Shown: positions 1,751-31,294 of the stretch, one piece after another
Numbering within the stretch: the stretch's first letter is position 1
How the letters are laid out: every line of letters begins with the position of its first letter
Assembly: GCA_949752795.1 (NCBI GenBank)
Contig: CATKHW010000381.1
Span: 248,001-312,000 of the forward strand
Direction of reading: 5' to 3'
From: Hyperoodon ampullatus
Taxonomy: Eukaryota; Chordata; Mammalia; Artiodactyla; Ziphiidae
DNA: 64,000 nucleotides
Translations under genes and position numbers: made by a program
Notes under the pieces: generated by a model
Told to the model about the DNA's origin: nothing
The model's database searches: none
Seen by the model: only the letters and a program-made list of their open reading frames with translations

Positions 1751-1764
1751 CAAGCAACCGCACA

Positions 1765-3487: not shown

Positions 3488-3501
3488 CAAGCAACCGAAC
3501 A

Positions 3502-4376: not shown

Positions 4377-5146
4377 GGGAAATTCTTTACAACTCCTTCA
4401 GGGTCTCTGATGAAACCTGGAATGACCCTATCAACAACGACAGCTGGATGTGGCATAAGGCTGGACACTTGGGACTGAGAGGATTGGTGAGATTGAGTGA
4501 GCAAATGCAGACACTTTAAAACAATAGTATGTGGCACCCATTCCATGGGTCCCAACTCTCGAGGTTGAAGGAACTATTACTACAGCTATAACATGTACGG
4601 GAAACCTAGAGAACGGACACACTGTGAATACGAAAGGTTTCTAAAACTCAAAGAATAGACCCTCTCCTGGTGCACCGGTTTGACTTTCCAACTGCTTTAT
4701 TATCAGTCTCCCAACTTGAAGAGACAGCCCCTTTAACCTCCTGGTTCGCACAGGTTGCCAATTTGGCAGAGGATGAAAGGGAAGAGGGAGAACCAATGAG
4801 AGAGTAGCTCTTAGGCATTTGGACGGGCACATGTCACTCTAATTTCCCGGCAGGAAGAAGAATTAACAAAAGTCTCAGGCACCCACCGGGAAACAGTATA
4901 GGTCCTGAACCAAAATTTTGACTTGCGTTCAGCTCACAAAAAAGGAGTTGAAAAATGGAGCTCAGGGGCACAGCAATTCAACAACTGGCAGAGTAATAAA
5001 GGAAAACTCTCGTCCAAAAATCTGTTGAGGGAAGGAAACGAGGCGTATTTGAAAGGCAGGCAGAATAGCAGGAAACAGATTTCAAGAGGTACGTTGGAAT
5101 CGCCTTTAAAGCACAGGAAGAGGGGCACAGCTTCGACAATAATGCA

Positions 5147-6883: not shown

Positions 6884-6957
6884 CTTGGCCAAAAAGGGCG
6901 TATGTGTTTTCTCCTCAATATATTCAGGAGAAAACACATACGCCCTTTTTGGCCAAG
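6884..6957. repeat. Palindrome with matched substitution in both arms
   Basis: Arm position 22 is changed on both sides (left TATGTG, right CACATA), so pairing is kept. The only mismatch is next to the axis (CCTCAATA). Confidence 0.9.
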
Positions 6958-8622: not shown

Positions 8623-10361
8623 CTTGGCCAAAAAGGGCGTATGCGTTTTCTCCTGAATATATTCAGGAGAAAACGCATACGCCCTTTTTTGCCAAGCAAG
8701 CAAGCGGGAAATGCAAATCTGCACTACAAAGAAGTATCACTTCCCACCGGTCAAAAGGGACATCCACAAAGTGTGTAAAAACCAGAAAGGCAAGACAGGC
8801 CCTGGAGAACAGGGAGCCTTGTTATGCTGATGGGCGGGATGTAAATTGCCAACTGCCTCTCTGGAGGAGTACATTGTGTTCCCTAAAACAAGTAAAGAAC
8901 AGAGCTACAGAGCCAAGGGCACTTCCAGTCTAGGGAATATACCTTGGGAAAACTGAAAATCAATAAGACAGAGCCAGCCCAAAATTTAGGGCTGCACTGC
9001 TTACAAGGACCTCAAATTAGATACACATTAAGTATCCCAGGAAATATAAAAATGGTTCAAAAAATTGTGGTACTTACGTACGATGGAATATCCCTCAGCC
9101 ATGAAATCAATGTCATAAGACCAGTAGCAGCAAAATGGGTGGATTCAGGTACGATGATTCTAAGTGAAAAAAGTCACACAGAAAAAGAAACTTATCATAA
9201 GATATCACTTATGAAGATCCTGTAAACATGGCTACACTTGAACTGAGTTAGGAAAGAGAACAGTGTCTCATGTTTAGAAAACACTCTTATGCCTGCTTAA
9301 GGGGGAAGGAGAGGTGGGATGATGCATAAAACCAGAGTTTGATATAAGTACAGGTACCGTTCCAAAAACCAACTATTGAATAGACAAGACCTACACCTTC
9401 CTCAGTGAAAGGGACTCAAAACACCATATTTCCCGCAGAGGAATATATCTGACTAGTAAGAATCTTAAAACCTATGTACTGATATGTCTCCGTAAGGGAA
9501 CCAAGTGTGTCTAGACTGGCATAAACATGGCAGCGAGAATCAGCTCAAACCCACTATAAAAAGGAATTTCAAAAACAAAACAAAAAAACTGGGAAATTCT
9601 TTACAATTCCTTCAGGGTCTCTGATGAAACCTGGAATAACCCTATGTACAAAAACAGCTGGATGTGGCATAAGGAGCGACACTTGGGACTGAGACGATTG
9701 GTGAGATTGGGTGAGCAAATGCAGACCCTTTAAAGCACAAATGCCTGGCACCCATTCCATGGGTCCCAACTCTCCAGGTTGAAGGGAATATTACTACAGC
9801 TATAACATGTACGGGAAACCTAGAGAACGGACACACTGTGAATACGAAAGGTTTCTAAAACTCAACGAATACTCCGTCTCCTGGTGCTCCGGTTTGACTT
9901 TCCATCTCCTTTACTATGAACCTCCCAACTTGGAGAGACAGCCCCTTTAACCTCCTGGTTCGCACAGGTTGCCAATTTGGCAGAGGATTAAAGGGAAGAG
10001 GGAGAACCAATGAGAGAGTAGCTGTTAGGCATTTGGACGGGCACATATCACTGTAATTTCCCAGCAGGAAGAAGAATTAACCAAAGGCTCAGCCACCCAC
10101 CAGGAACCAGTATAGGTCCTGAACCAAAATTTTGGACTTGCGGTCAGCTCACCAAAAACGAGTTGAAAAATGGAGCTCAGGGGCACAGCAATTCACAAAC
10201 TGGCCGAGTAATAAAGGACAACTATCGTCCAAAAATCTGTTGAGGAAAGGCAACGAGGCGGACTTGAAAGCAAGGCAGAATAGCAGGAAACAGATTTCAA
10301 GAGGTACATTGGAATCGCCTTTAAAGCACAGGAATAGGGGCACAGCTTCGACAATAATGCA
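8623..10361 (+). repeat. Satellite monomer 5
   Basis: 1,739 bp. Palindrome 8623-8696 with one mismatch, at arm position 7 but in the right arm, whereas monomers 3 and 6 carry the same change in the left arm. L1 part 8711-9588. Confidence 0.95.
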
Positions 10362-12099
10362 CTTGGCAAAAAAGGGCGTATGCGTTTTCTCCTGAATATA
10401 TTCAGGAGAAAACGCATACGCCCTTTTTGGCCAAGCAAGTAAGCGGGCAACGCATATCTGCACTCAAAGAAGTATCACTTCCCACTGGTCAAAAGGGACA
10501 GCCACAAAATGTGTAAAATCCAGAAAGGCAAGACAGGCCCTGGAGAACAGGGAGCCTTGTTATGGTGTTGGGCGGGATGTAAATTGTCAACTGCCTCTCT
10601 GGAGGAATGCATTGTGTGGTCTAAAACATGTAAACAACAGAGCTACAGAGCCAAGGGCACTTCCAGTCTAGGGAATATACCTTTGGAAAACTGAAAATCA
10701 ATAAGACAGAGCCACCCCAAAATTTAGGGCTGCACTGCTTACAAGGACCTCAACTTGGATACACATTAAGTATCCCAGGAAATATAAAAATGGTTCAAAA
10801 AATTGTGGTACTTACGTACGATGGAATATCCCTCAGCCATGAAATCAATATCATAAGACCAGTAGCAGCAAAATGAGTGGATTCAGGTACGATGATTCTA
10901 AGTGAAATAAGTGACACAGAAAAAGAAACTTATCATAAGATATCACTTATGAAGAACCTATAAACTTGGCTACACTTGAACTGAGTTAGGAAAGAGAACA
11001 GTGTCTCACATTTACAAAACACTCTTATGCCTGCTTAAGGGGGAAGGAGAGGTGGGGTGATGCATAAAACCAGAGTTTGATATAAGCACAGGTACCGTTC
11101 CAAAAACCAACTATGGAATAGACAAGACCTACACCTTCCTCAGTGAAAGGGACTCAAAACCCCATATTTCTCGCAGAGGAATATATCTGACTAGTAAGAA
11201 TCTTAAAACCTATGTATTGATATGTCTCCATAAGGGAATCAAGTGTGCCTAGACTGGCATAAACATGGCAGCGAGAATCAGCTCAAACCCACTATAAAAA
11301 GGAATTTCAAAAACAAAACAAAAAAACTGGGAAATTCTTTACAATTCCTTCAGGGTCTCTGATGAAACCTGGAATGACCCTATCTACAATGACAGCCGGA
11401 TGTGGCATAAAGAGGGACAGTTGGGACTGAGACGATTGGTGAGATTGGGTGAGCAAATGCAGACCCTTTAAAGCACAAATGCCTGGCACCCATTCCATGG
11501 GTCCCAACTCTCCAGGTTGAAGGGAATATTACTACAGCTATAACATGTATGGGAAACCTAGAGAACGGACACACTGTGAATACGAAAGGTTTCTAAAACT
11601 CAACAAATAGTCCCTCTCCTGGTGCTCCGGTTTGACTTTCCATCTGTTTTACTATCAACCTCCGAACTTGGAGAGACAGCCCATTTAACCTCCTGGGTCG
11701 CACATGTTTCCAAATTGGCAGAGGATGAAAGGGAAGAGGGAGAACCAATGAGAGAGTAGCTGTTAGGCATTTGGACGGGCACATATCACTCTAACTTCCC
11801 GGCAGGAAGAAGAATTAACCAATGTCTCAGCCACCCACCGGGAACCAGCATAGGTCGTGAACCAAAATTTTGTACTTGCGGTCAGCGCACAAAAAACGAG
11901 TTGAAAAATGGAGCTCAGGGGCACAGCAATTCACAAACTGGCCGAGTAATAAAGGACAACTATCGTCCAAAAATCTGTTGAGGGAAGGCAACGAGGCGGA
12001 CTTGAAAATGGGGCAGAATAGCAGGAAACAGATTTCAAGAGGTACGTTGGAATCGCCTTTAAAGCACAGAAAGAGGAGCATATCTTCGACAATGATGCA
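10362..12099 (+). repeat. Satellite monomer 6 (composite)
   Basis: 1,738 bp. The first 310 bp resemble monomer 3. From about 10,681 (CTTTGGAAAACTG, then TTTACAAAACACTC) it shares private variants with monomer 13, which opens the 7-unit register duplication. Palindrome 10362-10435, one mismatch. L1 part 10450-11326. Confidence 0.95.
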
Positions 12100-13838
12100 C
12101 TTGGCCAAAAAGGGCGTATGCGCTTTCTCCTGAATATATTCAGGAGAAAACGCATACACCCGTTTTGGCCAAGCAAGCAAGCGGGCAATGCAAATCTGCA
12201 CTACAAAGAAGTATCACTTCCCACCGGTCAAAAGGGACATCCACAAAATGTGTAAAAACCAGAAAGGCAAGAGAGGCCCTGGAGAACAGGGAGCCTTGTT
12301 ATGCTGATGGGCGGGATGTAAATTGCCAACTGCCTCTCTGGAGGAGTACATTGTGTTCCCTAAAACAAGTAAATAACAGAGCTACAGAGCCAAGGGCACT
12401 TCCAGTCTAGGGAATATACCTTGGGAAAACTGAAAATCAATAAGACAGAGCCACCCCAAAATTTAGGGCTGCACTGCTTACAAGGACCTCAACTTGGGTA
12501 CACATTAAATATCCCAGGAAATATAAAAATGGTTCAAAAAATTGTGGTACTTACGTACGATGGAATATCCCTCAGCCATGAAATCAATGTCATAAGACCA
12601 GTGGCAGCAAAATGGGTGGATTCAGGTACGATGATTCTAAGTGAAATAAGTCACAGAGAAAAAGAAACTTATCATAAGATATCACTTATGAAGATCCTGT
12701 AAACATGGCTACACTTGAACTGAGTTAGGAAAGAGAACAGTGTCTCACATTTAGAAAACACTCTTATGCCTGCTTAAGGGGGAAGGAGAGGTGGGGTGAT
12801 GCATAAAACCAGAGTTTGATATAAGCACATGTACCATTCCAAAAACCAACTATGGAATAGACAAGACCTACACCTTCCTCAGTGAAAGGGACTCAAAACC
12901 CCATATTTCCCACAGAGGAATATATCTGACTAGTAAGAATCTTAAAACCTATGTATTGATATGTCCCCATAAGGGAATGAAGTGTGTCTAGACTGGCATA
13001 AACATGGCAGCGAGATTCAGCTCAAACCCACTATAAAAAGGAATTTCAAAAACAAAACAAAAAAACTGGGAAATTCTTTACAATTCCTTCAGGGTCTCTG
13101 ATGAAACCTGGAATGACCCTATCTACAACGAAAGCTGGATGTGTCATAAGGAGGGTCACTTGGGCCTGAGACGATTGGTGAGATTGGGTGAGCAAATGCA
13201 GACCCTTTAAAGCAATAATGCATGGCACCCATTCCATGGGTGCCAACTCTCCAGGTTGAAGGGAATATTACTACAGCTCTAACATGTATGGGAAACCTAG
13301 AGAACGGACACACTGTGAATACGAAAGGTTTCTAAAACTCAACGAATAGTCCCTCTGCTGGTGCTCTGGTTTGACTTTCCATCTGCTTTACTATCAACCT
13401 CCCAACTTGGAGAGACAGCCACTTTAACCTCCTGGTTCGCACAGGTTGCCAATTTGGCAGAGGATGAAAGGGAAGAGGGAGAACCAATGAGAGAGTAGCT
13501 CTTAGGCATTTGGACGGGCACATATCACTGTAATTTCCCGGCAGGAAGAAGAATTAACCAAAGTCTCAGCCACCCACCCGGAACTAGTATAGGTCCTGAA
13601 CCAAAATTTTGGACCTGCGGTCAGCTCACCAAAAACGAGTTGAATAATGGAGCTCAGGGGCACAGCAATTCACAAACTGGCCGAGTAATAAAGGACAACT
13701 ATCGTCCAAAAATCTGTTGAGGGAAGGCAACGAGGCGGACGTGAAAACGAGGCAGAATAGCAGGAAACAGATTTCAAGAGGTACGTTGGAATCACCTTTA
13801 AACCACAGGAAGAGGGGCACAACTTCGACAATGATGCA
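12100..13838 (+). repeat. Satellite monomer 7
   Basis: 1,739 bp. Palindrome 12100-12173 with three mismatches (positions 12, 16, 24), identical in pattern to monomer 14, 12,169 bp downstream. L1 part 12188-13065. Confidence 0.95.
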
Positions 13839-15577
13839 CTTGGCCAAAAAGGGAGTATGCGTTTTCTCCTGAATATATTTAGGAGAAAACGCATACGCCC
13901 TTTTTGGTAAAGCAAGCAAGAGGGCAATGCAAATCTGCACTACAAAGAAGTATCACTTCCCACCGGTCAAAAGGGACATCCACAAAATGTGTAACAACCA
14001 GAAAGGCAAGACAGGCCCTGGAGAACAGGGAGCCTTGTTATGCTGATGGGCGGGATGTAAATTGCCAACTGCTTCCCTGGAGGAGTGCATTGTGTTCCCT
14101 AAAACAAGTAAAGAACAGAGCTACAGAGCCAAGGGCACTTCCAGTCTAGGGAATATACCTTGGGAAAACTGAAAATCAATAAGACAGAGCCACCCCAAAA
14201 TTTAGGGCTGCACTGCTTACAAGGACCTCAACTTGGGTACACCTTAAATATCCCAGGAAATATAAAAATGGTTCAAAAAATTGTGGTACTTACGTACGAT
14301 GGAATATCCCTCAGCCATGAAATCAATGTCATAAGACCAGTAGCAGCAAAATGGGTGGATTCAGGTACGATGATTCTAAGTGAAATAAGTCACACAGAAA
14401 AAGAAACTTATCATAAGATATCACTTATGAAGATCCTGTAAACATGGCTACACTTGAACTGAGTTAGGAAAGAGAAGAGTGTCTCACATTTAGAAAACAC
14501 TCTTATGCCTGCTTAAGGGGGAAGGAGAGGTGGGGTGATGCATAAAACCAGAGTTTGATATAAGCACAGGTACCGTTCCAAAAACCAACTATGGAATAGA
14601 CAAGACCTACACCTTCCTCAGTGAAAGGGACTCAAAACCCCATATTTCCCGCAGAGGAATATATCTGACTAGTAAGAATCTTAAAACCTATGTATTGATA
14701 TGTCTCCGTAAGGGAATCAAGTGTGTCTAGACTGGCATAAACATGGCAGCGAGAATCAGCTCAAACCCACTATAAAAAGGAATTTCAAAGACAAAACAAA
14801 AAAACTGGGAAATTCTTTACAATTCCTTCAGGGTCTCTGATGAAACCTGGAATGACCCTATCTACAATGACAGCTGGATGTGGCATAAGGAGTTACACTT
14901 GGGACTGAGAAGATTGGTGAGATTGGGTGACCAAATGCAGACCCTTTGAAGCACAAGTGCCTGTCACCCATTCCATGGGTCCCAACTCTCCAGGTTGAAG
15001 GGAATATTACTACAGCTATAACATGTACGGGAAACCTAGAGAACGGACACACTGTGAATACGAAAGGTTTCTAAAACTCAACGAATAGTCCCTCTCCTGG
15101 TGCTCCGGTTTGACATTCCATCTGCTTTACTATCAACCGCCCAACTTGGAGAGACAGCCCCTTTAACCTCCTGGTTCGCACAGGTTGCCAATTTGGCAGA
15201 GGATGAAAGGGAAGAGGGAGAACCAATGAGAGAGTAGCTGTTAGGCATTTGGACGGACACATATCACTCTATCTTCCCCGCAGGAAGAAGAATTAACCAA
15301 AGTCTCAGCCACCCACCGGGAAACAGTATAGGTCCTGAACCGAAATATTGGACTTGCGGTCAGCTCACCAAAAACGAGTTGAAAAATGGAGCTCAGGGGC
15401 ACAGCAATTCACAAACTGGCCGAGTAATAAAGGGCAACTGTCGTCCAAAAATCTGTTGAGGGAAGGCAACGAGGCGGACTTGAAAGCGAGGCAGAATAGC
15501 CGGAAACAGATTTCAAGAAGTACGTTGGAATCGCCTTTAAGGCACAGGAAGAGGGGCACAACTTCGACAATGATGCA
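13839..15577 (+). repeat. Satellite monomer 8
   Basis: 1,739 bp. Palindrome 13839-13912 with four mismatches, including a TTTAGG change beside the axis and GGTAAAG at the right end, both shared with monomer 15. L1 part 13927-14804. Confidence 0.95.
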
Positions 15578-17314
15578 CTTGGCCAAAAATGGCGTATGAG
15601 TTTTCTCCTGAATATATTCAGGAGAAAACGCATACGCCCTTTTTGGCTAAGCAAGCAAGCGGGCAATGCAAATCTGCCCTACAAAGAAGTATCACTTCCC
15701 ACCGGTCAAAAGGGACATCCACAAATGTGTAAAAACCAGAAAGGCAAGACAGGCCCTGGAGAACAGGGAGCCTTGTTTTGCTGATGGGCGGGATGTAAAT
15801 TGCCAACTGCCTCTCGGGAAGAGTGCATTGTGTTCCCTAAAACAAGTAAAGAACAGAGCTACAGAGCCAAGGACATTTCCAGTCTAGGGAATATACCTTG
15901 GGAAAACTGAAAATCAATGAGACAGAGCCACCCAAAATTTACGGCTGCACTGCTTACAAGGACCTCAACTTGGATACACATTAAGTATCCCAGGAAATAT
16001 AAAAATGGTTCAAAAAATTGTGGTAATTACGTATGATGGAATATCCCTCAGCCGTGAAATCAATGTCATAAGACCAGTAGCAGCAAAATGGGTGGATTCA
16101 GGTACGATGATTCTAAGTGAAATAAGTCACACAGAAAAAGAAACTTATCATAAGATATCACTTATGAAGATCCTATAAACATGGCTACACTTGAACTGAG
16201 TTAGGAAAGACAACAGTGTCTCTTATTTAGAAAACACTCTTATGCCTGCTTAAGGGGGAAGGAGGGGTGGGGTGATGCATAAAACCAGAGTTTGATATAA
16301 GCACAGGTACCGTTCCAAACACCAACTATGGAATAGACAAGAACTACACCTTCCTCAGTGAAAGGGACTCAAAACCCCATATTTCCCGCAGAGGAATATA
16401 TCTGACTAGTAAGAATCTTAAAACCTATGTATTGATATGTCTCCGTAAGGGAATCAAGTGTGTCTAGACTGGCATAAACATGGCAGCGAGAATCAGCTCA
16501 AACCCACTATAAAAAGGTATTTCAAAAACAAAACAAAAAAACTAGGAAATTCTTTTCAATTACTTCAGGGTCTCTGATGAAACCTGGAATGACCCTATCT
16601 ACAACGACAGCTGGATGTGGCATAAGGCTGGACACTTGGGATTGAGAGGATTGGTGAGATTGGGTGAGCAAATGCAGACCCTTTAAAGCATTAATGCATG
16701 GCACCCATTCCATGGGTCCCAACTATCCAGGTTGAAGGGAATATTACTACAGTTATAAAATGTACGGGAAACCTAGAGAACGGACACACTGTGAATACGA
16801 AAAGTTTCTAAAACTCAACGAATAGTCCCTCTCCTGGAGCTCCGGTTTGACTTTCCATCTGCTTTACTATCAACCTCCCAACTTGGAGAGACAGCCCCTT
16901 TAACCTCCTGGTTTGCACAGGTTGCCAATTTGGCAGAGGATGAAAGGGAAGAGAGAGAACCAATGAGAGAGTAGCTGTTAGGCATTTGGACCGGCATATA
17001 TCACTGTAATTTCCCGGCAGGAAGAAGAATTAACCAAAGTCTCAGCCCCCCACCGGGAACCAGTATAGGTCCTGAACCAAAGTTTTGGACTTGCAGTCAG
17101 CTCACCAAACACGAGTTGAATAATGGAGCTCAGGGGCACAGCAATTCACAAACTGGCCGAGTAATAAAGGACAACTATCGTCCAAAAATATGTTGAGGGA
17201 AGGCAACGAGGCGGACTTGAATGCGAGGCAGAATAGCAGGAAACAGATTTCAAGAGGTACGTTGGAATCGCCTTTAAAGCACAGGAAGAGGGGCACAACT
17301 TCGACAATGATGCA
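15578..17314 (+). repeat. Satellite monomer 9
   Basis: 1,737 bp. Palindrome 15578-15651 with three mismatches (positions 4, 13, 22). L1 part 15666-16541. It does not match its 7-unit partner (monomer 16) between about 15.58 and 16.9 kb, but matches again from about 17.0 kb: a local replacement. Confidence 0.95.
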
Positions 17315-19051
17315 CTTGGCCAAAAGGGCGTATGCGTTTTCTCCTGTATATATTCAGGAGAAAACGCATACGCCCTTTTTGGCCAAGCAAGCAAGCGGGC
17401 AATGCAAATCTGCACTACAAGGAAGTATCACTTCCCACTGGTCAAAAGGGACATCCACAAAATGTGTAAAAACCAGAAAGGCAAGACAGGCCCTGGAGAA
17501 CAGGGAGCCTTGTTATGCTTATGGGCGGGATGTAAATTGCCGACTGCCTCTCTGGAGCAGTGCATTGTGTTCCCTAAAACAAGTAAAGAACAGAGCTACA
17601 GAGCCAAGGGCACTTCCAGTCTAGGGAATATACCTTGGGAAAACTGAAAATCAATAAGACAGAGCCACCCCAAAATTTAGGGCTGCACTGCTTACAAGGA
17701 CCTCAACTTGGGTACACATTAAATATCCCAGGAAATATAAAAATGGTTCAAAAAATTGTGGTACTTACGTACGATGGAATATCCCTCAGCCATGAAGTCA
17801 ATGTCATAAGACCAGTAGCAGCAAAATGGGTGGATTCAGGTACGATGATTCTAAGTGAAATAAGTCACACAGAAAAAGAAACTTATCATAAGATATCACT
17901 TATGAAGATCCTGTAAACATGGCTACACTTGAACTGAGTTAGGAAAGAGAACAGTGTCTCACATTTAGAAAACACTCTTATGCCTGCTTAAGGGGGAAGG
18001 AGAGGTGGGGTGATGCATAAAACCAGAGCTTGATATAAGCACAGGTACCGTTCCAAAAACCAACTATGGAATAGAAAAGACCTACACCTTCCTCAGTGAA
18101 AGGGACTCAAAACCCCATATTTCCCGGAGAGGAATATATCTGACTAGTAAGACTCTTAAAACCTATGTATTGATATGTCTCCGTAAGGGAATCAAGTGTG
18201 TCTAGACTGGCATAAACATGGCAGCGAGAATCAGCTCAAACCCACTATAAAAAGGAATTTCAAAAACAAAACAAAAAAACTGGGAAATTCTTTACAATTC
18301 CTTAGGGTCTCTGATGAAACATGGAATGACCCTATCTACAATGACAGCTGGATGTGGCATAAGGCTGGACACTTGTGACTGAGAGAATTGGTGAGATTGG
18401 GTGAGCAAATGCAGACCCTTTAAAGCAATAATGCATGGCACCCATTCCATGGGTCCCAACTCTCCAGGTTGAAGGGAATATTACTACAGTTATAACATGT
18501 ACGGGAAACCTAGAGAACGGACACACTGTGAATACGAAAGGTTTCTAAAACTCAACGAATAGTCCCTCTCCTGGTGCTCCGGTTTGACTTTCCATCTGCT
18601 TTACTATCAACCTCCCAACTTGGAGACACAGCCCCTTTAACCTCCTGGTTCGCACAGGTTGCCAATTTGGCAGAGGATGAAAGGGAAGAGGGAGAACCAA
18701 TGAGAGAGTAGCTGTTAGGCATTTGGACGGGCACATATCACTGTAATTTCCCGGCAGGAAGAAGAATTAACCAAAGTCTCAGCCACCCACCGGGAACCAG
18801 TATAGGTCCTGAACCAAAATTTTGGGCTTGTGGTCAGCTCACCGAAAACGAGTTGAAAAATGGAGCTCAGGGGCACAGCAATTCACAAACTGGCCGAGTA
18901 ATAAAGGACAACTATCATCCAAAAATCTGTTGAGGGAAGGCAACGAGGCGGACTTGAAAGCGAGGCAGAGTAGCAGGAAACAGATTTCAAGAGATACGTT
19001 GGAATCGCCTTTAAAGCACAGGAAGAGGGGCACAACTTCGACAATGATGCA
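17315..19051 (+). repeat. Satellite monomer 10
   Basis: 1,737 bp. Palindrome 17315-17387 with one A missing in the left arm and a T beside the axis (CTGTATATATTCAG). This marks the subfamily of monomers 10, 17, 19 and 21. L1 part 17402-18278. Confidence 0.95.
18900..18905 (+). promoter_or_regulatory. AATAAA hexamer in unique segment
   Basis: A canonical polyadenylation hexamer in the context GAGTAATAAAGGAC, about 150 bp before the palindrome in most core monomers. It is lost in the copies that read AATACAGG or AATACTGG (20.6, 38.0 and 39.8 kb) and AAAAAAGG (41.5 and 43.2 kb). It could end satellite transcripts or be chance. Confidence 0.2.
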
Positions 19052-19125
19052 CTTGGCCAAAAAGGGCGTATGCGTTTTCTCCTGAATATATTCAGGAGAA
19101 AACGCATACGCCCTTTTTGGCCAAG
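19052..19125. repeat. Perfect 74-bp palindrome, monomer 11
   Basis: Two 37-base arms, no spacer, all pairs match. Left arm starts CTTGGCCAAAAAGGGCG; the axis lies in GAATATATTC. Confidence 0.97.
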
Positions 19126-19139
19126 CAAGCAAGCGGGCA

Positions 19140-19654
19140 ATGCAAATCTGCACTACAAAGAAGTATCACTTCCCACCGGTCAAAAGGGACATCCACAAAA
19201 TGTGTAAAAACCAGAAAGGCAAGACAGGCCCTGGAGAATAGGCAGCCTTGTTATGCTGATGGGCGGGATGTAAATTGCCAACTGCCTATCTGGAGGAGTG
19301 CATTGTGTTTCCTAAAACAAGTAAACAACAGAGCTACAGAGCCAAGGGCACTTCCAGTCTAGGGAATATACCTTGGGAAAACTGAAAATCAATAAGACAG
19401 AGCCACCCCAAAATTTAGGGCTGCACTGCTTACAAGGACCTCAACTTGGGTACACCTTAAATATCCCAGGAAATATAAAAATGGTTCAAAAAACTGTGGT
19501 ACTTACGTATGATGGAATATCCCTCAGCCATGAAATCAATGTCATAAGACCAGTAGCAGCAAAATGGGTGGATTCAGGTACGATGATTCTAAGTGAAATA
19601 AGTCACACAGAAAAAGAAACTTATCATAAGATATCACTTATGAAGATCCTGTAA
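19140..19654 (+). mobile_element. L1 ORF2 C-terminal remnant, reference core copy
   Basis: Core equivalent of 1765-2278. The MQIC..KKYHFPPVKRDI part and the YDGISLSHEINVI part lie in different frames. This copy also has a stop in the first part (GAGAATAGG near 19235). The final block KETYHKISLMKIL corresponds to the last residues of L1 ORF2 before its stop. Equivalent segments sit at offset +88 to about +602 in every complete monomer. Confidence 0.85.
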
Positions 19655-20017
19655 ACATGGCTACACTTGACCTGAGTTAGGAAAGAGAACAGTGTCTCAC
19701 ATTTAGAAAACACTCTTATGCCTGCTTAAGGGGGAAGGAGAGGTGGGGTGATGCATAAAACCAGAGTTTGATATAAGCACAGGTACCGTTCCAAAAACCA
19801 ACTATGGAATAGACAAGACCTACACCTTCCTCAGTGAAAGGGACTCAAAACCCCATATTTCCCGCAGAGGAATATATCTGACTAGTAAGAATCTTAAAAC
19901 CTATGTATTGATATGTCTCCGTAAGGGAATCAAGTGTGTCTAGACTGGCATAAACATGGCAGCGAGAATCAGCTCAAACCCACTATAAAAAGGAATTTCA
20001 AAAACAAACCAAAAAAA
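19655..20017 (+). mobile_element. L1 3' UTR and A-rich tail, reference core copy
   Basis: Contains CACATTTAGAAAACACTC, GGGGGAAGGAGAGGTGGGG and, near the end, AATCAGCTCAAACCCACTAT, which lines up with the L1 end AAATCAACTATAC. The A-rich tail is at about 20000-20017. It marks the 3' end of the L1-derived part; the following 770 bp show nothing L1-like that I can recognise. Confidence 0.75.
19984..19992 (+). promoter_or_regulatory. TATA-like motif, once per monomer
   Basis: TATAAAAAG lies just before the A-rich tail, and nearly every copy repeats it (monomer 17 reads CATAAAAAG; monomer 27 reads TAAAAAAAG; monomer 2 reads TAGAAAAGG). It derives from the end of the L1 3' UTR, so its presence is explained by ancestry. 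Promoter activity is not shown. Confidence 0.25.
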
Positions 20018-20790
20018 CTGGGAAATTCTTTACAATTCCTTCAGGGTCTCTGATGAAACCTGGAATGACCCTATCTACAACGACAGCTGGATGTGGCATA
20101 AGGAAGGACACTTGGGACTGAGAGGATTGGTGAGATTGGGTGAGCAAATGCAGACCCTTTAAAGCACAAATGCCTGGCACCCATTCCATGGGTACCACCT
20201 CTCCAGGTTGAAGGGAATATTACTACAGCTATAACATGTACGGGAAACCTAGAGAACGGACACACTGTGAATACGAAAGGTTTCTAAAACTCAACGAATA
20301 GTCCCTCTCCTGGTGCTCCGGTTTGACTTTCCCTCTGCTTTACTATCAACCTCCCAACTTGGAGAGACAGCCCCTTTAACATCCTGGTTTACACAGGTTG
20401 CCAATTTTTCAGAGGATGAAAGGGAAGAGGGAGAACCAATGAGAGAGTTGCTATTAGGCATTTGGACGGGCACATATCACTGTAATTTCCCGGCAGGAAG
20501 AGGAATTAACCAAAGTCTCAGCCCCCCACCGGGAACCAGCATAGGTCCTGAACCAAAATTTCGGACTTGCAGTCAGCTCACCAAAAATTAGTTGAAAAAT
20601 GGAGCTCAGGGGCACAGCAATTCACAAACTGGCTGAGTAATACAGGAAAACTATCGTCCAAAAATCTGTTGAGGGAAGGCAATGAGGCGGACTTGAAAGC
20701 GAGGCAGAATAGCAGGAAACAGATTTCAAGAGGTACGTTGGAATCACCTTTAAAGCACAGGAAGAGTGGCACAACTTCGACAATGATGCA
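20018..20790. other. Unassigned unique segment of the monomer (reference copy)
   Basis: About 770 bp between the L1 A-rich tail and the next palindrome. I see no open frame starting with ATG of useful length, no tRNA-like promoter boxes and no SINE I can name. It holds a short hairpin (ACCCAT/ATGGGT, 20179-20193) and a conserved GAACCAATGAGAGAG stretch with a CCAAT motif. Its origin is unknown to me; it could be a second mobile-element fragment or host sequence captured when the satellite formed. Confidence 0.6.
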
Positions 20791-22530
20791 CTTGGCCAGA
20801 AAGGGCGTATGCGTTTTCTCCTGAATATATTCAGGAGAAAACGCATACGCCCTTTTTGGCCAAGCAAGCAAGCGGGCAATGCAAATCTGCACTACAAAGA
20901 AGTATCACTTCCCACCGGTCAAAAGGGACATCCACAAAATGTGTAAAAACCAGAAAGGCAAGACAGGCCCTGGAGAACAGGCAGCCTTGTTATGCTGATG
21001 GGCGGAATGTAAATTTCCAACTGCCTCTCTGGAGGAGTGCATTGTGTTTCCTAAAACAAGTAAAGAACAGAGCTACAGAGCCAAGGGCACTTCCAGTCTA
21101 GGGAATATACCATGGGAAAACTGAAAATCAATAAGACAGAGCCACCCCAAAATTTAGGGCTGCACTGCTTACAAGGACCTCAACTTGGGTACACCTTAAA
21201 TATCCCAGGAAATATAAAAATGGTTCAAAAAATTGTGGTACTTACGTACGATGGAATATCCCTCAGCCATGAAATCAATGTCATAAGAGCAGTAGCAGCA
21301 AAATGGTTGGATTCAGGTACGAAGATTCTAAGTGAAATAAGTCACACAGAAAAAGAAACTTATCATAAGATATCACTTATGAAGATCCTGTAAACATGGC
21401 TACACTTGAACTGAGTTAGGAAAGAGAACAGTGTCTCACATTTAGAAAACACTCTTATGCCTGCTTAAGGGGGAAGGAGAGGTGGGGTGATGCATAAAAC
21501 CAGAGTTTGATATAAGCACAGGTACCGTTCCAAAAACCAACTATGGAATAGCCAAGACCTACACCTTCCTCAGTGAAAGGGACTCAAAACCCCATATTTC
21601 CCGCAGAGGAATATATCTGACTAGTAAGAATCTTAAAACCTATGTATTGATATGTCTCCGTAAGGGAATCAAGTGTGTCTAGACTGGCATAAACACGGCA
21701 GCGAGAATCAGCTCAAACCCACTATAAAAAGGAATTTTAAAAACAAAACAAAAAAAACTGGGAAATTCTTTACAATTCCTTCAGGGTCTCTGATGAAACC
21801 TGGAATGACCCTATCTACAAAGACAGCTGGATGTGGCATAAGGAGGGACACTTCGGACTGAGGGGTTTGTTGAGATTGGGTGAGCAAATGCAGACCCTTT
21901 AAATCACAAATGCCTGGCACCCATTCCATGGGTACCAACTCTCCAGGTTGAAGGGAATATTACTACAGTTATAACATGTACGGGAAACCTAGAGAATGGA
22001 CACACTGTGATTACGAATGGTTTGTAAAACTCAAGGAATAGTCCCCCTCCTGGTGCTCCGGTTTGACTTTCCATCTGCTTTACTATCAATCTCCCAACTT
22101 GCAGAGACAGCCTCTTGAACCTCCTGGTTCGCACAGGTTTCCAAATTGGCAGAGGATTAAAGGGAAGAGGGAGAACCAATGAGATAGTAGCTGTTAAGCA
22201 TTTGGACGGGCACATATCACTGTAATTTCCCGGCAGGAAGAAGAATTAACCAAAGTCTCAGCCACCCACCAGGAACCAGTATAGGTCCTGAACCAAAATT
22301 TTGAACTTGCGGTCAGCTCACCAAAAACGAGTTGAAAAATGGAGCTCAGGGGCACAGCAATTCACAAACTGGCCGAGTAATAAAGGACAACTATCGTCCA
22401 AAAATCTGTTGAGGAAAGGCAACGAGGTGGACTTGAAAGCGAGGCAGAATAGCAGGAAACAGATTTCAAGAGGTATGTTGGAATCGCCTTTAAAGCACAG
22501 GAAGAGGGGCACAACTTTGACAATGATGCA
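20791..22530 (+). repeat. Satellite monomer 12
   Basis: 1,740 bp, the longest copy, with one extra A in the A-rich tail. Palindrome 20791-20864, one mismatch (position 9, CCAGAAAG). L1 part 20879-21758. Partner of monomer 23 at 11 units until about 21.94 kb, where the match ends. Confidence 0.95.
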
Positions 22531-22604
22531 CTTGGCCAAAAAGGGCGTATGCGTTTTCTCCTGAATATATTCAGGAGAAAACGCATACGCCCTTTTTGGC
22601 CAAG
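22531..22604. repeat. Perfect 74-bp palindrome, monomer 13
   Basis: All 37 pairs match. Same arm sequence as in monomer 11. Confidence 0.97.
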
Positions 22605-24268
22605 CAAGCAAGCGGGCAATGCAAATCTGCACTACAAAGAAGTATCACTTCCCACCAGTCAAAAGGGACATCCACAAAATGTGTAAAACCCAGAAAGGAT
22701 AGACAGGCCCTGGAGAACAGGGAGCCTTGTTATGCTGATGGGCGGGATGTAAATTGCCAACTGCCTCTCTGGAGGAGTGCATTGTGTTCCCTAAAACAAG
22801 TAAAGAACAGAGCTACAGAGCTAAGGGCACTTCCAGTCTAGGGAATATACCTTTGGAAAACTGAAAATCAATAAGACAGAGCCACCCCAAAATTTAGGGC
22901 TGCACTGCTTACAAGGACCTCAACTTGGATACACCTTTAGTATCCCAGGAAATATAAAAATGGTTCAAAAAATTGTGGTACTTACGTACGATGGAATATC
23001 CCTCAGCCATGAAATCAATATCATAAGACCAGTAGCAGCAAAATGAGTGGATTCAGGTACGATGATTCTAAGTGAAATAAGTCACACAGAAAAAGAAACT
23101 TATCATAAGATATCACTTATGAAGATCCTATAAACTTGGCTACACTTGAACTGAGTTAGGAAAGAGAACAGGGTCTCACATTTACAAAACACTCTTATGC
23201 CTGCTTAAGGGGGAAGGAGAGGTGGGGTGATGCATAAAACCAGAGTTTGATATAAGCACAGGTACCGTTCCAAAAACCAACTATGGAATAAACAAGACCT
23301 ACACCTTCCTCAGTGAAATGGACTCAAAACCCCATATTTCCCGCAGAGGAATATATCTGACTAGTAAGAATCTTAAAACCTATGTATTGATATGTCTCCA
23401 TAAGGGAATCAAGTGTGCCTAGACTGGCATAAACATGGCAGCGAGAATCAGCTCAAACCCACTATAAAAAGGAATTTCAAAAACAAAACAAAAAAACTGG
23501 GAAATTCTTTACAATTCCTTCAGGGTCTCTGATGAAACCTGGAATGACCCTATCTACAATGACAGCCGGATGTGGCATAAGGAGGGACAGTTGGGACTGA
23601 GACGATTGGTGAGATTGGGTGAGCAAATGCAGACCCTTTAAAGCACAAATGCCTGGCACCCATTCCATGGGTCCCAACTCTCCAGGTTGAAGGGAATATT
23701 ACTACAGCTATAACATGTATGGGAAACCTAGAGAACGGACACACTGTGAATACGAAAGGTTTCTAAAACTCAACAAATAGTCCCTCTCCTGGTGCTCCGG
23801 TTTGACTTTCCATTGCTTTACTATCAACCTCCGAACTTGGTGAGACAGCCCATTTAACCTCCTGGGTCGCACAGGTTTCCAAATTGGCAGAGGATGAAAG
23901 GGAAGAGGGAGAACCAATGAGAGAGTAGCTGTTAGGCATTTGGACGGGCACATATCACTCTAACTTCCCGGCAGGAAGAAGAATTAACCAATGTCTCAGC
24001 CACCCACCGGGAACCTGCATAGGTCGTGAACCAAAATTTTGTACTTGCGGTCAGCGCACAAAAAACGAGTTGAAAAATGGAGCTCAGGGGCACAGCAATT
24101 CACAAACTGGCCGAGTAATAAAGGACAACTATCGTCCAAAAATCTGTTGAGGGAAGGCAACGAGGCGGACTTGAAAATGGGGCAGAATAGCAGGAAACAG
24201 ATTTCAAGAGGTACGTTGGAATCGCCTTTAAAGCACAGAAAGAGGAGCACATCTTCGACAATGATGCA
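22531..24268 (+). repeat. Satellite monomer 13
   Basis: 1,738 bp with a perfect 74-bp palindrome (22531-22604). L1 part 22619-23496. From 22,851 it becomes the partner of monomer 6. Confidence 0.95.
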
Positions 24269-26007
24269 CTTGGCCAAAAAGGGCGTATGCGCTTTCTCCT
24301 GAATATATTCAGGAGAAAACGCATACACCCGTTTTGGCCAAGCAAGCAAGCGGGCAATGCAAATCTGCACTACAAAGAAGTATCACTTCCCACCGGTCAA
24401 AAGGGACATCCACAAAATGTGTAAAAACCAGAAAGGCAAGAGAGGCCCTGGAGAACAGGGAGCCTTGTTATGCTGATGGGCGGGATGTAAATTGCCAACT
24501 GCCTCTCTGGAGGAGTACATTGTGTTCCCTAAAACAAGTAAAGAACAGAGCTACAGAGCCAAGGGCACTTCCAGTCTAGGGAATATACCTTGGGAAAACT
24601 GAAAATCAATAAGACAGAGCCACCCCAAAATTTAGGGCTGCACTGCTTACAAGGACCTCAACTTGGGTACACATTAAATATCCCAGGAAATATAAAAATG
24701 GTTCAAAAAATTGTGGTACTTACGTACGATGGAATATCCCTCAGCCATGAAATCAATGTCATAAGACCAGTGGCAGCAAAATGGGTGGATTCAGGTACGA
24801 TGATTCTAAGTGAAATAAGTCACAGAGAAAAAGAAACTTATCATAAGATATCACTTATGAAGATCCTGTAAACATGGCTACACTTGAACTGAGTTAGGAA
24901 AGAGAACAGTGTCTCACATTTAGAAAACACTCTTATGCCTGCTTAAGGGGGAAGGAGAGGTGGGGTGATGCATAAAACCAGAGTTTGATATAAGCACATG
25001 TACCATTCCAAAAACCAACTATGGAATAGACAAGACCTACACCTTCCTCAGTGAAAGGGACTCAAAACCCCATATTTCCCGCAGAGGAATATATCTGACT
25101 AGTAAGAATCTTAAAACTTATGTATTGATATGTCTCCATAAGGGAATGAAGTGTGTCTAGACTGGCATAAACATGGCAGCGAGAATCAGCTCAAACCCAC
25201 TATAAAAAGGAATTTCAAAAACAAAACAAAAAAACTGGGAAATTCTTTACAATTCCTTCAGGGTCTCTGATGAAACCTGGAATGACCCTATCTACAACGA
25301 AAGCTGGATGTGTCATAAGGAGGGACACTTGGGCCTGAGACGATTGGTGAGATTGGGTGAGCAAATGCAGACCCTTTAAAGCAATAATGCATGGCACCCA
25401 TTCCATGGGTGCCAACTCTCCAGGTTGAAGGGAATATTACTACAGCTCTAACATGTATGGGACACCTAGAGAACGGACACACTGTGAATACGAAAGGTTT
25501 CTAAAACTCAACGAATAGTCCCTCTGCTGGTGCTCTGGTTTGACTTTCCATCTGCTTTACTATCAACCTCCCAACATGGAGAGACAGCCACTTTAACCTC
25601 CTGGATCGCACAGGTTGCCAATTTGTCAGAGGATGAAAGGGAAGAGGGAGAACCAATGAGAGAGTAGCTCTTAGGCATTTGGACGGGCACATATCACTGT
25701 AATTTCCCGGCAGGAAGAAGAATTAACCAAAGTCTCAGCCACCCACCCGGAACCAGTATAGGTCCTGAACCAAAATTTTGGACCTGCGGTCAGCTCACCA
25801 AAAACGAGTTGAATAATGGAGCTCAGGGGCACAGCAATTCACAAACTGGCCGAGTAATAAAGGACAACTATCGTCCAAAAATCTGTTGAGGGAAGGCAAC
25901 GAGGCGGACTTGAAAACGAGGCAGAATAGCAGGAAACAGATTTCAAGAGGTACGTTGGAATCGCCTTTAAAGCACAGGAAGAGGGGCACAACTTCGAAAA
26001 TGATGCA
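24269..26007 (+). repeat. Satellite monomer 14
   Basis: 1,739 bp. Palindrome 24269-24342 with the same three mismatches as monomer 7. L1 part 24357-25234. Confidence 0.95.
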
Positions 26008-27745
26008 CTTGGCCAAAACGGGAGTATGCGTTTTCTCCTGAATATATTTAGGAGAAAACGCATACGCCCTTTTTGGTAAAGCAAGCAAGAGGGCAATGCA
26101 AATCTGCACTACAAAGAAGTATCACTTCCCACCGGTCAAAAGGGACATCTACAAAATGTGTAAAAACCAGAAAGGCAAGACAGGCCCTGGAGAACAGGGA
26201 GCCTTGTTATGCTGATGGGCGGGATGTAAATTGCCAACTGCTTCCCTGGAGGAGTGCATTGTGTTCCCTAAAACAAGTAAAGAACAGAGCTACAGAGCCA
26301 AGGGCACTTCCAGTCTACGGAATATACCTTGGGAAAACTGAAAATCAATAAGACAGAGCCACCCCAAAATTTAGGGCTGCACTGCTTACAAGGACCTCAA
26401 CTTGGGTACACCTTAAATATCCCAGGAAATATAAAAATGGTTCAAAAAATTGTGGTACTTACGTACGATGGAATATCCCTCAGCCATGAAATCAATGTCA
26501 TAAGACCAGTAGCAGCAAAATGGGTGGATTCAGGTACGATGATTCTAAGTGAAATAAGTCACACAGAAAAAGAAACTTATCATAAGATATCACTTATGAA
26601 GATCCTGTAAACATGGCTACACTTGAAGTGAGTTAGGAAAGAGAAGAGTGTCTCACATTTAGAAAACACTCTTATGCCTGCTTAAGGGGGAAGGAGAGGT
26701 GGGGTGATGCATAAAACCAGAGTTTGATATAAGCACAGGTACCGTTACAAAAACCAACTATGGAATAGACAAGACCTACACCTTCCTCAGTGAAAGGGAC
26801 TCAAAACCCCATATTTCCCGCAGAGGAATATATCTGACTAGTAAGAATCTTAAAACCTATGTATTGATATGTCTCCGTAAGGGAATCAAGTGTGTCTAGA
26901 CTGGCATAAACATGGCAGCGAGAATCAGCTCCAACCCACTATAAAAAGGAATTTCAAAGACAAAACAAAAAAACTGGGAAATTCTTTACAATTCCTTCAG
27001 GGTCTCTGATGAAACCTGGAATGACCCTATCTACAATGACAGCTGGATGTGGCATAAGGAGTTACACTTGGGACTGAGAAGATTGGTGAGATTGGGTGAC
27101 CAAATGCAGACCCTTTGAAGCACAAGTGCCTGTCACCCATTCCATGGGTCCCAACTCTCCAGGTTGAAGGGAATATTACTACAGCTATAACATGTACGGG
27201 AAACCTAGAGAACGGACACACTGTGAATACGAAAGGTTTCTAAAACTCAACGAATAGTCCCTCTCCTGGTGCTCCGGTTTGACATTCCATCTGCTTTACT
27301 ATCAACCGCCCAACTTGGAGAGACAGCCCCTTTAACCTCCTGGTTCGCACAGGTTGCCAATTTGGCAGAGGATGAAAGGGAAGAGGGAGAACCAATGAGA
27401 GAGTAGCTGTTAGGCATTTGGACGGACACATATCACTCTATCTTCCCCACAGGAAGAAGAATTAACCATAGTCTCAGCCACCCACCGGGAAACAGTATAG
27501 GTCCTGAACCGAAATATTGGACTTGCGGTCAGCTCACCAAAAACGAGTTGAAAAATGGAGCTCAGGGGCACAGCAATTCACAAACTGGCCGAGTAATAAA
27601 GGACAACTATCGTCCAAAAATCTGTTGAGGGAAGGCAACGAGGCGGACTTGAAAGCGAGGCAGAATAGCCGGAAACAGATTTCAAGAAGTACGTTGGAAT
27701 CGCCTTTAAGGCACAGGAAGAGGGGCACAACTTCGACAATGATGC
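26008..27745 (+). repeat. Satellite monomer 15
   Basis: 1,738 bp. Palindrome 26008-26081 with five mismatches, the worst in the core: the four of monomer 8 plus position 12. L1 part 26096-26973. Confidence 0.95.
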
Positions 27746-27818
27746 CTTGCCAAAAAGGGCATATGCGTTTTCTCCTGAATATATTCAGGAGAAAACGCAT
27801 ATGCCCTTTTTTGCCAAG
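27746..27818. repeat. Palindrome with matched CpG-type substitution in both arms
   Basis: Arm position 17 is changed on both sides (GGGCATATG left, CATATGCCC right), lengthening an internal CATATG. One base is missing at the outer left end. Confidence 0.88.
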
Positions 27819-29482
27819 CAAGAAAGCGGGCAATGCAAATCTGCACTACAAAGACGTATCACTTCCCACTGGTCAAAAGGGACATCCACAAAATGTGTAA
27901 AATCCAGAAAGGCAAGACAGGCCCTGGAGAACCGGGAGCCTTCTTATGCTGATGGGCGATATGTAAATTGCCAACTGCCTCTCTGAAGGAGTGCATTGTG
28001 TTCCCGAAAACAAGTAAACAACAGAGCTACAGAGCCAAGGGCACTACCAGTCTAGGGAATATTCCTTGGAAAACTGAAAATCAATAACACAGAGCCACCC
28101 CAAAATTTAGGGCTGCACTGCTTACAAGGACCTCAACTTGGGTTCACCTTAAATATCCCAGGAAATATAAAAATGGTTCATAAAATTGCGGTACTTACGT
28201 ACGATGGAATAATCCTCAGCCATGAAATCAATGTCGTAAGACCAGTAGCAGCAAAATGGGTGGATTCAGGTACGATGATTCTAAGTGAAATAAGTCACAC
28301 AGAAAAAGAAACTTATCATAAGATATCACTTATGAAGATCCTGTACACATGGCTACACTTGAACTGAGTTAGGAAAGAGAACAGGGTCTCACATTTAGAA
28401 AACACTCTTATGCCTGCTTAAGGGGGAAGGAGAGGTGGGGTGATGCATAAAACCAGAGTTTGATATAAGCACAGGTACCGTTCCAAAAACCAACTATGGA
28501 ATAGACAAGACCTACACCTTCCTCAGTGAAAGGGACTCAAAACCCCATATTTCCCGCAGAGGAATATATCTGACTAGTAAGAATCTTAAAACCTATGTAT
28601 TGATATGTCTCCGTAAGGGAATCAAGTGTGTCTAGACTGGCATAAACATGGCAGCGAGAATCAGCTCAAACCCACTATAAAAACGAATTTAAAAAACAAA
28701 ACAAAAAAACTAGGAAATTCTTTACAATTCCTTCAGGGTCTCTGATGAAACCTGGAATGACCCTATCTACAATGACAGCTGGATGTGGCATAAGGAGGGA
28801 CACTTGGGACTGAGACGATTGGTGAGATTGGGTGAGCAAATGCAGACCCTTTAAAGCACAAATGCCTGGCACCCATTCCATGGGTCCTAACTCTCCAGGT
28901 TGAAGGGAATATTACTACAGCTATAACATGTACGGGAAACCTAGAGAACGGACACACTGTGAATACGAAAAGTTTCTAAAACTCAAAGAATAGTCCCTCT
29001 CCTGGTGCTCCGGTTTGACTTTCCATCTTCTTTACTATCAACCTCCCAACTTGGGGAGACAGCCCCTTTAACCTCCTGGTTTGCACAGGTTGCCAATTTG
29101 GCAGAGGATGAAAGGGAAGAGAGAGAACCAATGAGAGAGTAGCTGTTAGGCATTTGGACGGGCATATATCACTGTAATTTCCCGGCAGGAAGAAGAATTA
29201 AGGAAAGTCTCAGCCCCCCACCGGGAACCAGTATAGGTCCTGAACCAAAGTTTTGGACTTGCAGTCAGCTCACCAAAAAAGAGTTGAAAAATGGAGCTCA
29301 GGGGCACAGCAATTCACAAACTGGCCGAGTAATAAAGGACAACTATCGTCCAAAAATATGTTGAGGGAAGGCAACGAGGCGGACTTGAATGCGAGGCAGA
29401 ATAGCAGGAAACAGATTTCAAGAGGTACGTTGGAATCGCCTTTAAAGCACAGGAAGAGGGGCACAACTTCGACAATGATGCA
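27746..29482 (+). repeat. Satellite monomer 16
   Basis: 1,737 bp. Palindrome 27746-27818: one base missing at the left end, and a matched G-to-A/C-to-T change in both arms (GGGCATATGCG left, CGCATATGCCC right). L1 part 27833-28709. The first half is unlike its 7-unit partner, monomer 9. Confidence 0.95.
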
Positions 29483-31220
29483 CTTGGCCAAAAGGGCGTA
29501 TGCGTTTTCTCCTGTATATATTCAGGAGAAAACGCATACGCCCTTTTTGGCCAAGCAAGCAAGCGGGCAATGCAAATCTGCACTACAAAGAAGTATCACT
29601 TCCCACTGGTCAAAAGGGACATCCACAAAATGTGTAAAAACCAGAAAGGCAAGACAGGCCCTGGAGAACAGGGAGCCTTGTTATGCTTATGGGCGGGATG
29701 TAACTTGCCGACTGCCTCTGTGGAGCAGTGCATTGTGTTCCCTAAAACAAGTAAAGAACAGAGCTACAGAGCCAAGGGCACTTCCAGTCTAGGGAATATA
29801 CCTTGGGAAAACTGAAAATCAATAAGACAGAGCCACCCCAAAATTTAGGGCTGCACTGCTTACAAGGACCTCAACTTGGGTACACATTAAATATCCCAGG
29901 AAATATAAAAATGGTTCAAAAAATTGTGGTACTTACGTACGATGGAATATCCCTCAGCCATGAAGTCAATGTCATAAGACCAGTAGCAGCAAAATGGGTG
30001 GATTCAGGTACGATGATTCTAAGTGAAATAAGTCACACAGAAAAAGAAACTTATCATAAGATATCACTTATGAAGATCCTGTAAACATGGCTACACTTGA
30101 ACTGAGTTAGGAAAGAGAACAGTGTCTCACATTTAGAAAACACTCTTATGCCTGCTTAAGGGGGAAGGAGAGGTGGGGTGATGCATAAAACCAGAGCTTG
30201 ATATAAGCACAGGTACCGTTCCAAAAACCAACTATGGAATAGAAAAGACCTACACCTTCCTCAGTGAAAGGGACTCAAAACCCCATATTTCCCGGAGAGG
30301 AATATATCTGACTAGTAAGAATCTTAAAACCTATGTATTGATATGTCTCCGTAAGGGAATCAAGTGTGTCTAGACTGGCATAAACATGGCAGCGAGAATC
30401 AGCTCAAACCCACCATAAAAAGGAATTTCAAAAACAAAACAAAAAAACTGGGAAATTCTTTACAATTCCTTCAGAATCTCTGATGAAACCTGGAATGACC
30501 CTATCTACAACGACAGCTGGATGTGGCATAAGGCTGGACACTTGTGACTGAGAGAATTGGTGAGATTGGGTGAGCAAATGCAGACCCTTTAAAGCAATAA
30601 TGCATGGCACCCATTCCATGGGTCCCAACTCTCCAGGTTGAAGGGAATATTACTACAGTTATAACATGTACGGGAAACCTAGAGAACGGACACACTGTGA
30701 ATACGAAAGGTTTCTAAAACTCAACGAATAGTCCCTCTCCTGGTGCTCCGCTTTGACTTTCCATCTGCTTTACTATCAACCTCCCAACTTGGAGAGACAG
30801 CCCCTGTAACCTCCTGGTTCGCACAGGTTGCCAATTTGGCAGAGGATGAAAGGGAAGAGGGAGAACCAATGAGAGAGTAGCTGTTAGGCATTTGGACGGG
30901 CACATATCACTGTAATTTCCCGGCAGGAAGAAGAATTAACCAAAGTCTCAGCCACCCACCGGGAACCAGTATAGGTCCTGAACCAAAATTTTGGGCTTGT
31001 GGTCAGCTCACCGAAAACGAGTTGAAAAATGGAGCTCAGGGGCACAGCAATTCACAAACTGGCCGAGTAATAAAGGACAACTATCATCCAAAAATCTGTT
31101 GAGGGAAGGCAACGAGGCGGACTTGAAAGCGAGGCAGAATAGCAGGAAACAGATTTCAAGAGATACGTTGGAATCGCCTTTAAAGCACAGGAAGAGGGGC
31201 ACAACTTCGACAATGATGCA
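29483..31220 (+). repeat. Satellite monomer 17
   Basis: 1,738 bp. Palindrome 29483-29555 of the one-base-deleted subfamily. L1 part 29570-30447. Near-identical to monomers 19 and 21 (offsets 3,477 and 3,476). Confidence 0.95.
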
Positions 31221-31294
31221 CTTGGCCAAAAAGGGCGTATGCGTTTTCTCCTGAATATATTCAGGAGAAAACGCATACGCCCTTTTTGGCCAAG
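31221..31294. repeat. Perfect 74-bp palindrome, monomer 18
   Basis: All 37 pairs match. Confidence 0.97.

Follow-up and report, generated by a model that had tools for sequence, protein, structure and literature searches.

Palindrome copies in the satellite array

The window, meaning the whole 64-kb stretch of DNA analysed here, covered positions 248001–312000 of its contig (C401), in a genome of 2.83 Gb and 755 contigs. It held a satellite array with a monomer consensus of 1739 bp, and the complete monomers, m01 to m36, spanned 620–63198. The features are listed below by position in the window.

508..64000, forward strand: satellite array, 36 complete monomers and partial monomers at either end
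1678..1749 (BLAST extent), forward strand: edge copy m01, 8 mismatched pairs
3415..3486 (BLAST extent), forward strand: edge copy m02, 6 mismatched pairs
6884..6957, forward strand: copy m04, mirror-paired change at a CpG, arm position 21 (0-based) C to T, partner G to A
19052..19088, forward strand: left arm of copy m11, 37 nt
19089..19125, forward strand: right arm of copy m11, 37 nt, exact reverse complement of the left arm, without spacer
22531..22604, forward strand: perfect palindrome copy m13
27743..27818 (BLAST extent), forward strand: copy m16, mirror-paired change at a CpG, arm position 16 G to A, partner C to T
31221..31294, forward strand: perfect palindrome copy m18
34698..34771, forward strand: perfect palindrome copy m20
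46869..46942, forward strand: perfect palindrome copy m27
62513..62586, forward strand: perfect palindrome copy m36

The focal copy, in m11 (19052–19125), was a perfect 74-bp palindrome of two 37-nt arms without spacer. Pairing stopped at the arm ends, where the six adjoining outer pairs were mismatched, and within the focal monomer the palindrome was the sole inverted repeat of at least 14 nt reported by the repeat finder. A first-pass annotation of this DNA had described such a palindrome in every complete monomer, perfect in six, and with 0–3 mismatches in most core copies. This description was confirmed throughout. The palindrome was found in 36 of 36 complete monomers, always at consensus positions 1054–1127, and its arms were perfect in exactly the six copies named, m11, m13, m18, m20, m27 and m36. 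Among the 34 core copies (m03–m36, gaps scored as mismatches), 32 had 0–3 mismatched pairs (none in 6 copies, one in 8, two in 11, three in 7), and the other two had four and five. The DNA fold of the palindrome had a z score of −16.7 and was equalled by 0 of 200 shuffles, which rules out chance for the palindrome sequence itself. The 36 copies share a common ancestry, so their number is no independent evidence.

Several other features of the array were recorded. Local block duplications linked monomers such as m07 with m14, m08 with m15, and m17 with m19 and m21. Between 11047 and 37120 there was higher-order structure, in which duplicate blocks stood 2, 4, 7, 9 and 11 monomers apart. A degenerate 25-bp tandem repeat of ~20 copies (1–507) directly adjoined the array, and the 10 kb to the left of this repeat contained no palindrome match. 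Part of the monomer, at 19440–19740, resembles an L1 3′ end by eye, and a review describes the common cetacean satellite in the same way (PMC9659126).

Divergence and breakpoints within the window

The 34 core copies diverged from the consensus by 2.54% within the palindrome and by 2.35% in the rest of the monomer; among 74-bp windows, the palindrome ranked at the 65th percentile. After near-duplicates had been filtered out, which left 24 of the 34 copies, the values were 2.48% for the palindrome and 2.43% for the whole monomer, at the 59th percentile. This comparison of substitution rates, proposed in the annotation, thus gave no excess conservation, and the suggested constraint by protein binding was not borne out. 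The core copies contained 60 mismatched pairs among 1,258, from which a Poisson distribution gives 5.8 perfect copies; six were seen.

The annotation had also proposed that homogenisation is driven by breakage or recombination at the palindrome. Of the 30 block ends left by recent duplications of high identity, one lay within 50 bp of the palindrome, against 3.0 expected (several of the ends coincide, hence they are partly dependent). Compared with the other points tested, linkage across the palindrome ranked at the 82nd percentile, i.e. there was no breakdown. Crossovers were therefore not in excess near the palindrome in the window, and we consider a role in driving homogenisation very improbable, even though 7 of 97 palindromes sampled elsewhere carried a partial deletion of an arm or the axis, so that the palindrome is sometimes processed. 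The idea of cruciforms and breaks survives in part: the arms do interact, as indicated by those deletions and by the genome-wide counts given below, but breakpoints did not cluster in the window.

Within the window, no special feature keeps the palindrome perfect. The annotation had named arm identity no higher than expected from a homogenised chance inverted repeat, with no excess of crossovers or conservation, as evidence against its own interpretation, and this is what the window showed. Taken as a whole, that interpretation is partly supported.

The first two complete monomers, m01 and m02 (620–4097), represented an older variant with lower G+C and fewer CpG. They differed by 9.5% from each other and by 11.9% and 13.4% from the core. 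Each of their palindromes had nine changes, in line with the divergence of the whole monomer, and they had decayed without any mirrored change. All seven differences shared by the edge palindromes broke pairs (by our arithmetic, a probability of about 0.16). Polarity by CpG decay assigned 10 sites as edge-derived and 3 as core-derived. Because the edge lineage changed more, the seven pair-breaking differences do not clearly indicate that the core palindromes are maintained.

Two functional candidates were rejected. A CENP-B-binding satellite was discarded, as the CENP-B box had 0 matches with at most one mismatch in the window, where 4.1 were expected by chance. A known microRNA family was discarded as well: all 17 Rfam matches of the palindrome were below the gathering score, the best being mir-1468 (46.5, against 95), and scores of this kind are reached by any perfect hairpin.

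Abundance in the genome

A 30-nt piece of the arm, searched with up to three mismatches, had 127,989 forward and 128,273 reverse matches in the 2.83-Gb genome, and a reversed control pattern had 0. Assuming one palindrome per 1739-bp monomer, the satellite makes up ~8% of the genome. An axis-shortened form, with GAATTC in place of GAATATATTC, was found at 96 places genome-wide with up to two mismatches.

Mirror-paired changes between the arms

If the arms change independently, copies with a change in one arm should not be enriched in the complementary change at the mirrored site of the other. The 34 core copies in the window had two mirror-paired changes, against 0.41 under the null, which was not significant (1,169 of 20,000 shuffles). 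From other arrays, 97 palindromes were sampled at 17 of 18 loci, chosen for holding exact arms; the 90 ungapped ones had eight mirror-paired changes, against 1.1 by arm shuffle (0 of 5,000). A sample chosen by position gave 76 palindromes from 80 places, two with indels and two without a match having been dropped. It had two mirror-paired changes against 1.0 (1,374 of 5,000 shuffles, not significant) and four non-complementary doubles against 0.6.

Pooling gave 195 ungapped palindromes (29 from the window, 90 and 76), after the gapped ones, five of the 34 window copies and seven of the 97, were dropped. These had 12 mirror-paired changes against 2.2 by arm shuffle (0 of 5,000), and non-complementary doubles were also raised (6 against 2.5; 170 of 5,000). 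The number of mirror-paired changes was likewise above expectation when the number of changes per copy was kept (12 against 2.7 or 3.8; 0 of 5,000 each), when the same nulls were applied to the 97 palindromes of distinct sequence (11 against 2.6 or 3.6; 0 and 1 of 5,000), and when arms were shuffled within loci (119 copies, 10 against 3.0; 0 of 4,000). A control that slid the register along 119 copies gave the most both-changed cells, 12, in mirror position, and 8 in the register one base off.

The disagreement among samples prompted genome-wide counts on the 34-nt inner stem, which covered two of the 37 mirror pairs (24 and 28) and one off-mirror combination. Both arms were intact in 78,667 copies. 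At pair 28, the left arm was changed in 1,090 copies, the right arm in 1,026, and both in 133, against 13.9 expected. Among the matches listed of these 133, the doubles were complementary in 50 of 50, lay on 22 contigs and had C (40), A (7) or G (3) as mirrored letter. At pair 24, the corresponding numbers were 361, 334 and 11, against 1.5 expected for the doubles; 10 of the 11 were complementary, with three letters, on 6 contigs, four of them in one contig. One mirrored copy had already been seen when pair 28 was chosen, and none for pair 24. In the off-mirror control, which combined the pair-24 and pair-28 sites, there were 2 + 2 doubles where 4.6 + 4.5 were expected (4 against 9.1).

Complementary mirror-paired changes were thus in excess at both pairs examined, and the off-mirror control showed no such excess. 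Poisson values for the doubles treat copies as independent, and inherited copies surely account for many of the double rows; a small number of events may lie behind many of the doubles at pair 28. Still, every possible letter was mirrored at both pairs, which needs several independent events. Recombination between copies would yield doubles only at the product of the single frequencies.

These counts bear on the simplest account, in which a perfect inverted repeat was spread by unequal crossover and conversion and its arms do not interact. Such an account fits the ordinary divergence in the window, the number of perfect copies there and the absence of significant coupling in the 76 position-chosen palindromes. 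It is at odds with mirror doubles that exceed the product of singles by a factor of 7 to 10, nearly all complementary, and with control doubles below expectation. We regard homogenisation without arm interaction as largely refuted already, and improbable.

Complementary doubles are also predicted by selection for pairing, with the hairpin acting as an RNA or a protein-binding site and compensatory changes restoring the stem. The palindromes of three fragments (L052, L053 and L055, described below), better kept than their ~15% diverged flanks, would also agree with it. However, single-arm changes far exceeded doubles (1,850 against 133 at pair 28, a ratio of ~14; 673 against 11 at pair 24, ~61), which means that unpaired copies persist. 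Palindrome divergence in the window was not lower than elsewhere, and the Rfam and CENP-B searches described above point the same way. Selection of this kind is, in our view, quite improbable.

Mirrored copies made up 6.7% of the changed copies at pair 28 and 1.6% at pair 24. In a forward model, a mirrored share of ~5% corresponded to ~10% of mismatches being resolved, so that under this simple model very roughly 3–13% of mismatches would be resolved. Arm coupling at this level is real but too rare and weak to explain by itself the perfection of the copies, which is due mainly to homogenisation of a perfect ancestor.

Our preferred explanation, which we consider probable, is that the satellite carries the palindrome as a passenger, likely the remnant of a mariner MITE, that the palindrome is perfect mainly through homogenisation and youth, and that its arms are weakly coupled. 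An ancestral monomer would have captured a short mariner MITE, consisting of two TIRs fused head to head, and would then have multiplied. Near-perfection would come mainly from the descent of young copies from a perfect ancestor. Occasionally the palindrome may fold, either into a cruciform or, on the lagging-strand template, into a hairpin; one arm could then template the other, by a template switch of the nascent strand or by repair of the hairpin or cruciform. A mutation would thereby be erased, or mirrored at the partner position. The palindrome, its copy number, its ordinary divergence and unclustered breakpoints in the window, and the excess of complementary doubles at two pairs with an off-mirror control were observed directly; that a hairpin forms, that one arm is copied and that the sequence came from a mariner are inferences.

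A stronger form of coupling would give the arms a larger part. Hairpin templating in germline heterochromatin would have kept the palindrome perfect while the sequence shared by both arms drifted away from a mariner end. We think this unlikely.

Origin of the palindrome

When the outer part of the arm was aligned, outer end outward, to an arm of bovine miR-2284/2285, the two agreed at 22 of 27 letters, and a single gap was needed. At most 1 of 20,000 shuffles was as good in each of four tests, and 0 of 1,592 other 37-mers of the monomer reached the score. The bovine arm was assembled from the letters printed in the accessible parts of PMC2761914, PMC6203363, PMC10273741 and PMC11858326, and was picked as reference after the likeness had been noticed.

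The arm was also compared with 32 printed mariner TIRs, namely those of 30 of 32 Rhodnius lineages (Table 1 in the excerpt of PMC4678618; one duplicate and one truncated TIR were omitted) together with Hsmar1 and Mos1 (from the available part of PMC9062482). Rpmar4, a TIR from the mellifera subfamily, scored best; 51 of 4,000 shuffles did as well with their own best match. For the sum over mellifera and cecropia TIRs, 148 of 4,000 shuffles were as good. None of 531 other monomer pieces reached the mariner score. The Hsmar1 TIR matched the arm poorly, and no exact mariner family was found for the arm among the 32 TIRs and the bovine arm. With 37 + 37 nt and no spacer, there is near-zero internal sequence between the inverted repeats, as the definition of a MITE asks.

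miR-2284/2285 hairpins probably derive from Mariner1_BT. An explicit statement of this descent was not found in the literature searched, and the words "transpos", "mariner" and "repeat" occur 0 times in the accessible text of PMC3847189. Mariner1_BT is known from ruminants and toothed whales, according to the portion of PMC3517439 at hand. A porpoise flank that contains GGTTGGCCAAAAG, printed in the available text of PMC12427282, codes for a transposase end of mariner type (E value 2e-4 to Mos1). A Pfam scan of one porpoise frame and four of the six monomer frames had no match above the curated cut-off.

Other expected traces of insertion were looked for. Extension of the TIRs into the flanks of edge and core copies was equalled by 810, 3,027, 689 and 2,677 of 5,000 shuffles, and neither a TA target duplication nor the outermost TIR bases were found in the flanks of the edge copies or the core. 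A dispersed family with common ends was not found among seven isolated or dispersed places that were read; six (L032 and L051–L055) were satellite fragments, and the other, L031, had only a short likeness. Viral contigs had 0 matches with the arm and 0 with the bovine arm.

These results leave room for an origin in place, in which a template switch duplicated 37 bp in inverted orientation and the mariner likeness is due to chance. The missing TA duplication and outermost TIR bases agree with such an origin, as do the moderate significance of the 32-TIR comparison and the choice of the bovine reference after the fact. It would also be compatible with arm coupling. The likeness, however, is in the right register and orientation and was equalled by so few shuffles, no other monomer piece scored as high against mariners, and mariners have been published for toothed whales (PMC3517439, in part). 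We therefore hold the in-place origin possible but doubtful. The likeness to mellifera-type mariner ends and to miR-2284/2285 hairpins makes a fossil mariner MITE the rather likely origin.

Relation to known systems

The closest parallel is Made1 (MADE1), the MITE of Hsmar1 that gives rise to mir-548 hairpins, described in the consulted sections of PMC1784062 as an 80-bp palindrome with 37-bp arms and 7,850 annotated human copies. Like the palindrome described here, it is nearly perfect, has arms of 37 bp and occurs thousands of times in a mammalian genome. The two arms of Made1 flank a 6-bp centre and its copies are dispersed, whereas the whale palindrome is spacer-free, lies in a tandem satellite and has an arm unlike that of Hsmar1. 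Made1, whose arms are equally long, shows that thousands of such palindromes can persist in a mammal. The annotation had treated the persistence of the palindromes as a puzzle; they do persist, but Made1 indicates that no special cause is needed. Mariner1_BT and the bovine miR-2284/2285 hairpins are a second parallel: the palindrome arm agrees with 22 of 27 letters of the microRNA arm, and the outer ends were not found here.

We take the monomer to be like the common cetacean satellite in its length and its L1-like stretch. That satellite has an L1-derived part (PMC9659126, citing Kapitonov 1998), and a palindrome is not mentioned in the accessible passages of the same paper. An account of the palindrome in this satellite was not found in the literature searched, as far as its available text goes. 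In Xenopus, miDNA4 is a satellite built from a MITE (excerpt of PMC9659126). There too, transposon ends ride in tandem repeats; the difference is that the Xenopus MITE hosts or seeds the satellite, and here a MITE-like piece makes up 4% of an otherwise different monomer.

The weak coupling of the arms recalls processes described for other palindromes. Quasipalindrome correction and template switching rewrite one arm from the other and leave mirror-paired changes, and large Y palindromes undergo arm-to-arm conversion. Most knowledge of quasipalindrome correction comes from assays in bacteria and with reporters. Here, in contrast, the palindrome is 74 bp long and belongs to a satellite with ~128,000 copies, which would make such correction measurable in an animal germline by counting. 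The bases copied, their distance from the axis and the direction of copying could be counted against a built-in off-mirror control. If the reading with strongly concerted arms were true, the ~128,000 copies would be a natural record of how a mammal corrects palindromes, down to the length of the copied tracts and the direction of copying. Under the preferred passenger explanation, short perfect palindromes may persist by being tolerated, homogenised and occasionally self-corrected.

Isolated and altered copies

Some copies outside the regular arrays were read individually. On a large contig, L031 (2735–2822) was an isolated perfect 69-bp palindrome with a GAATTC axis. Its likeness to the satellite extended over only ~88 bp, beginning 2 bp outside the palindrome, and it is either a stray piece of the satellite or a dispersed relative. 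L032, an isolated piece also on a large contig, comprised 740 bp of satellite at 97% identity and included a perfect palindrome.

L051 to L055 were satellite fragments 84–94% identical to the consensus. L051 carried a mirror-paired G-to-C change. L052, L053 and L055, on contig C21, had few substitutions in the palindrome beside their diverged flanks; they are probably duplicates of one another and old fragments of the satellite.

At L039, L040 and L048, four sampled copies lacked most of one arm, as deletions at a hairpin would give. A run of copies at C21:150137651–150320291 shared a one-sided change at pair 24, with a spacing of mostly 3,476 bp or multiples of it, and is a two-monomer higher-order repeat.
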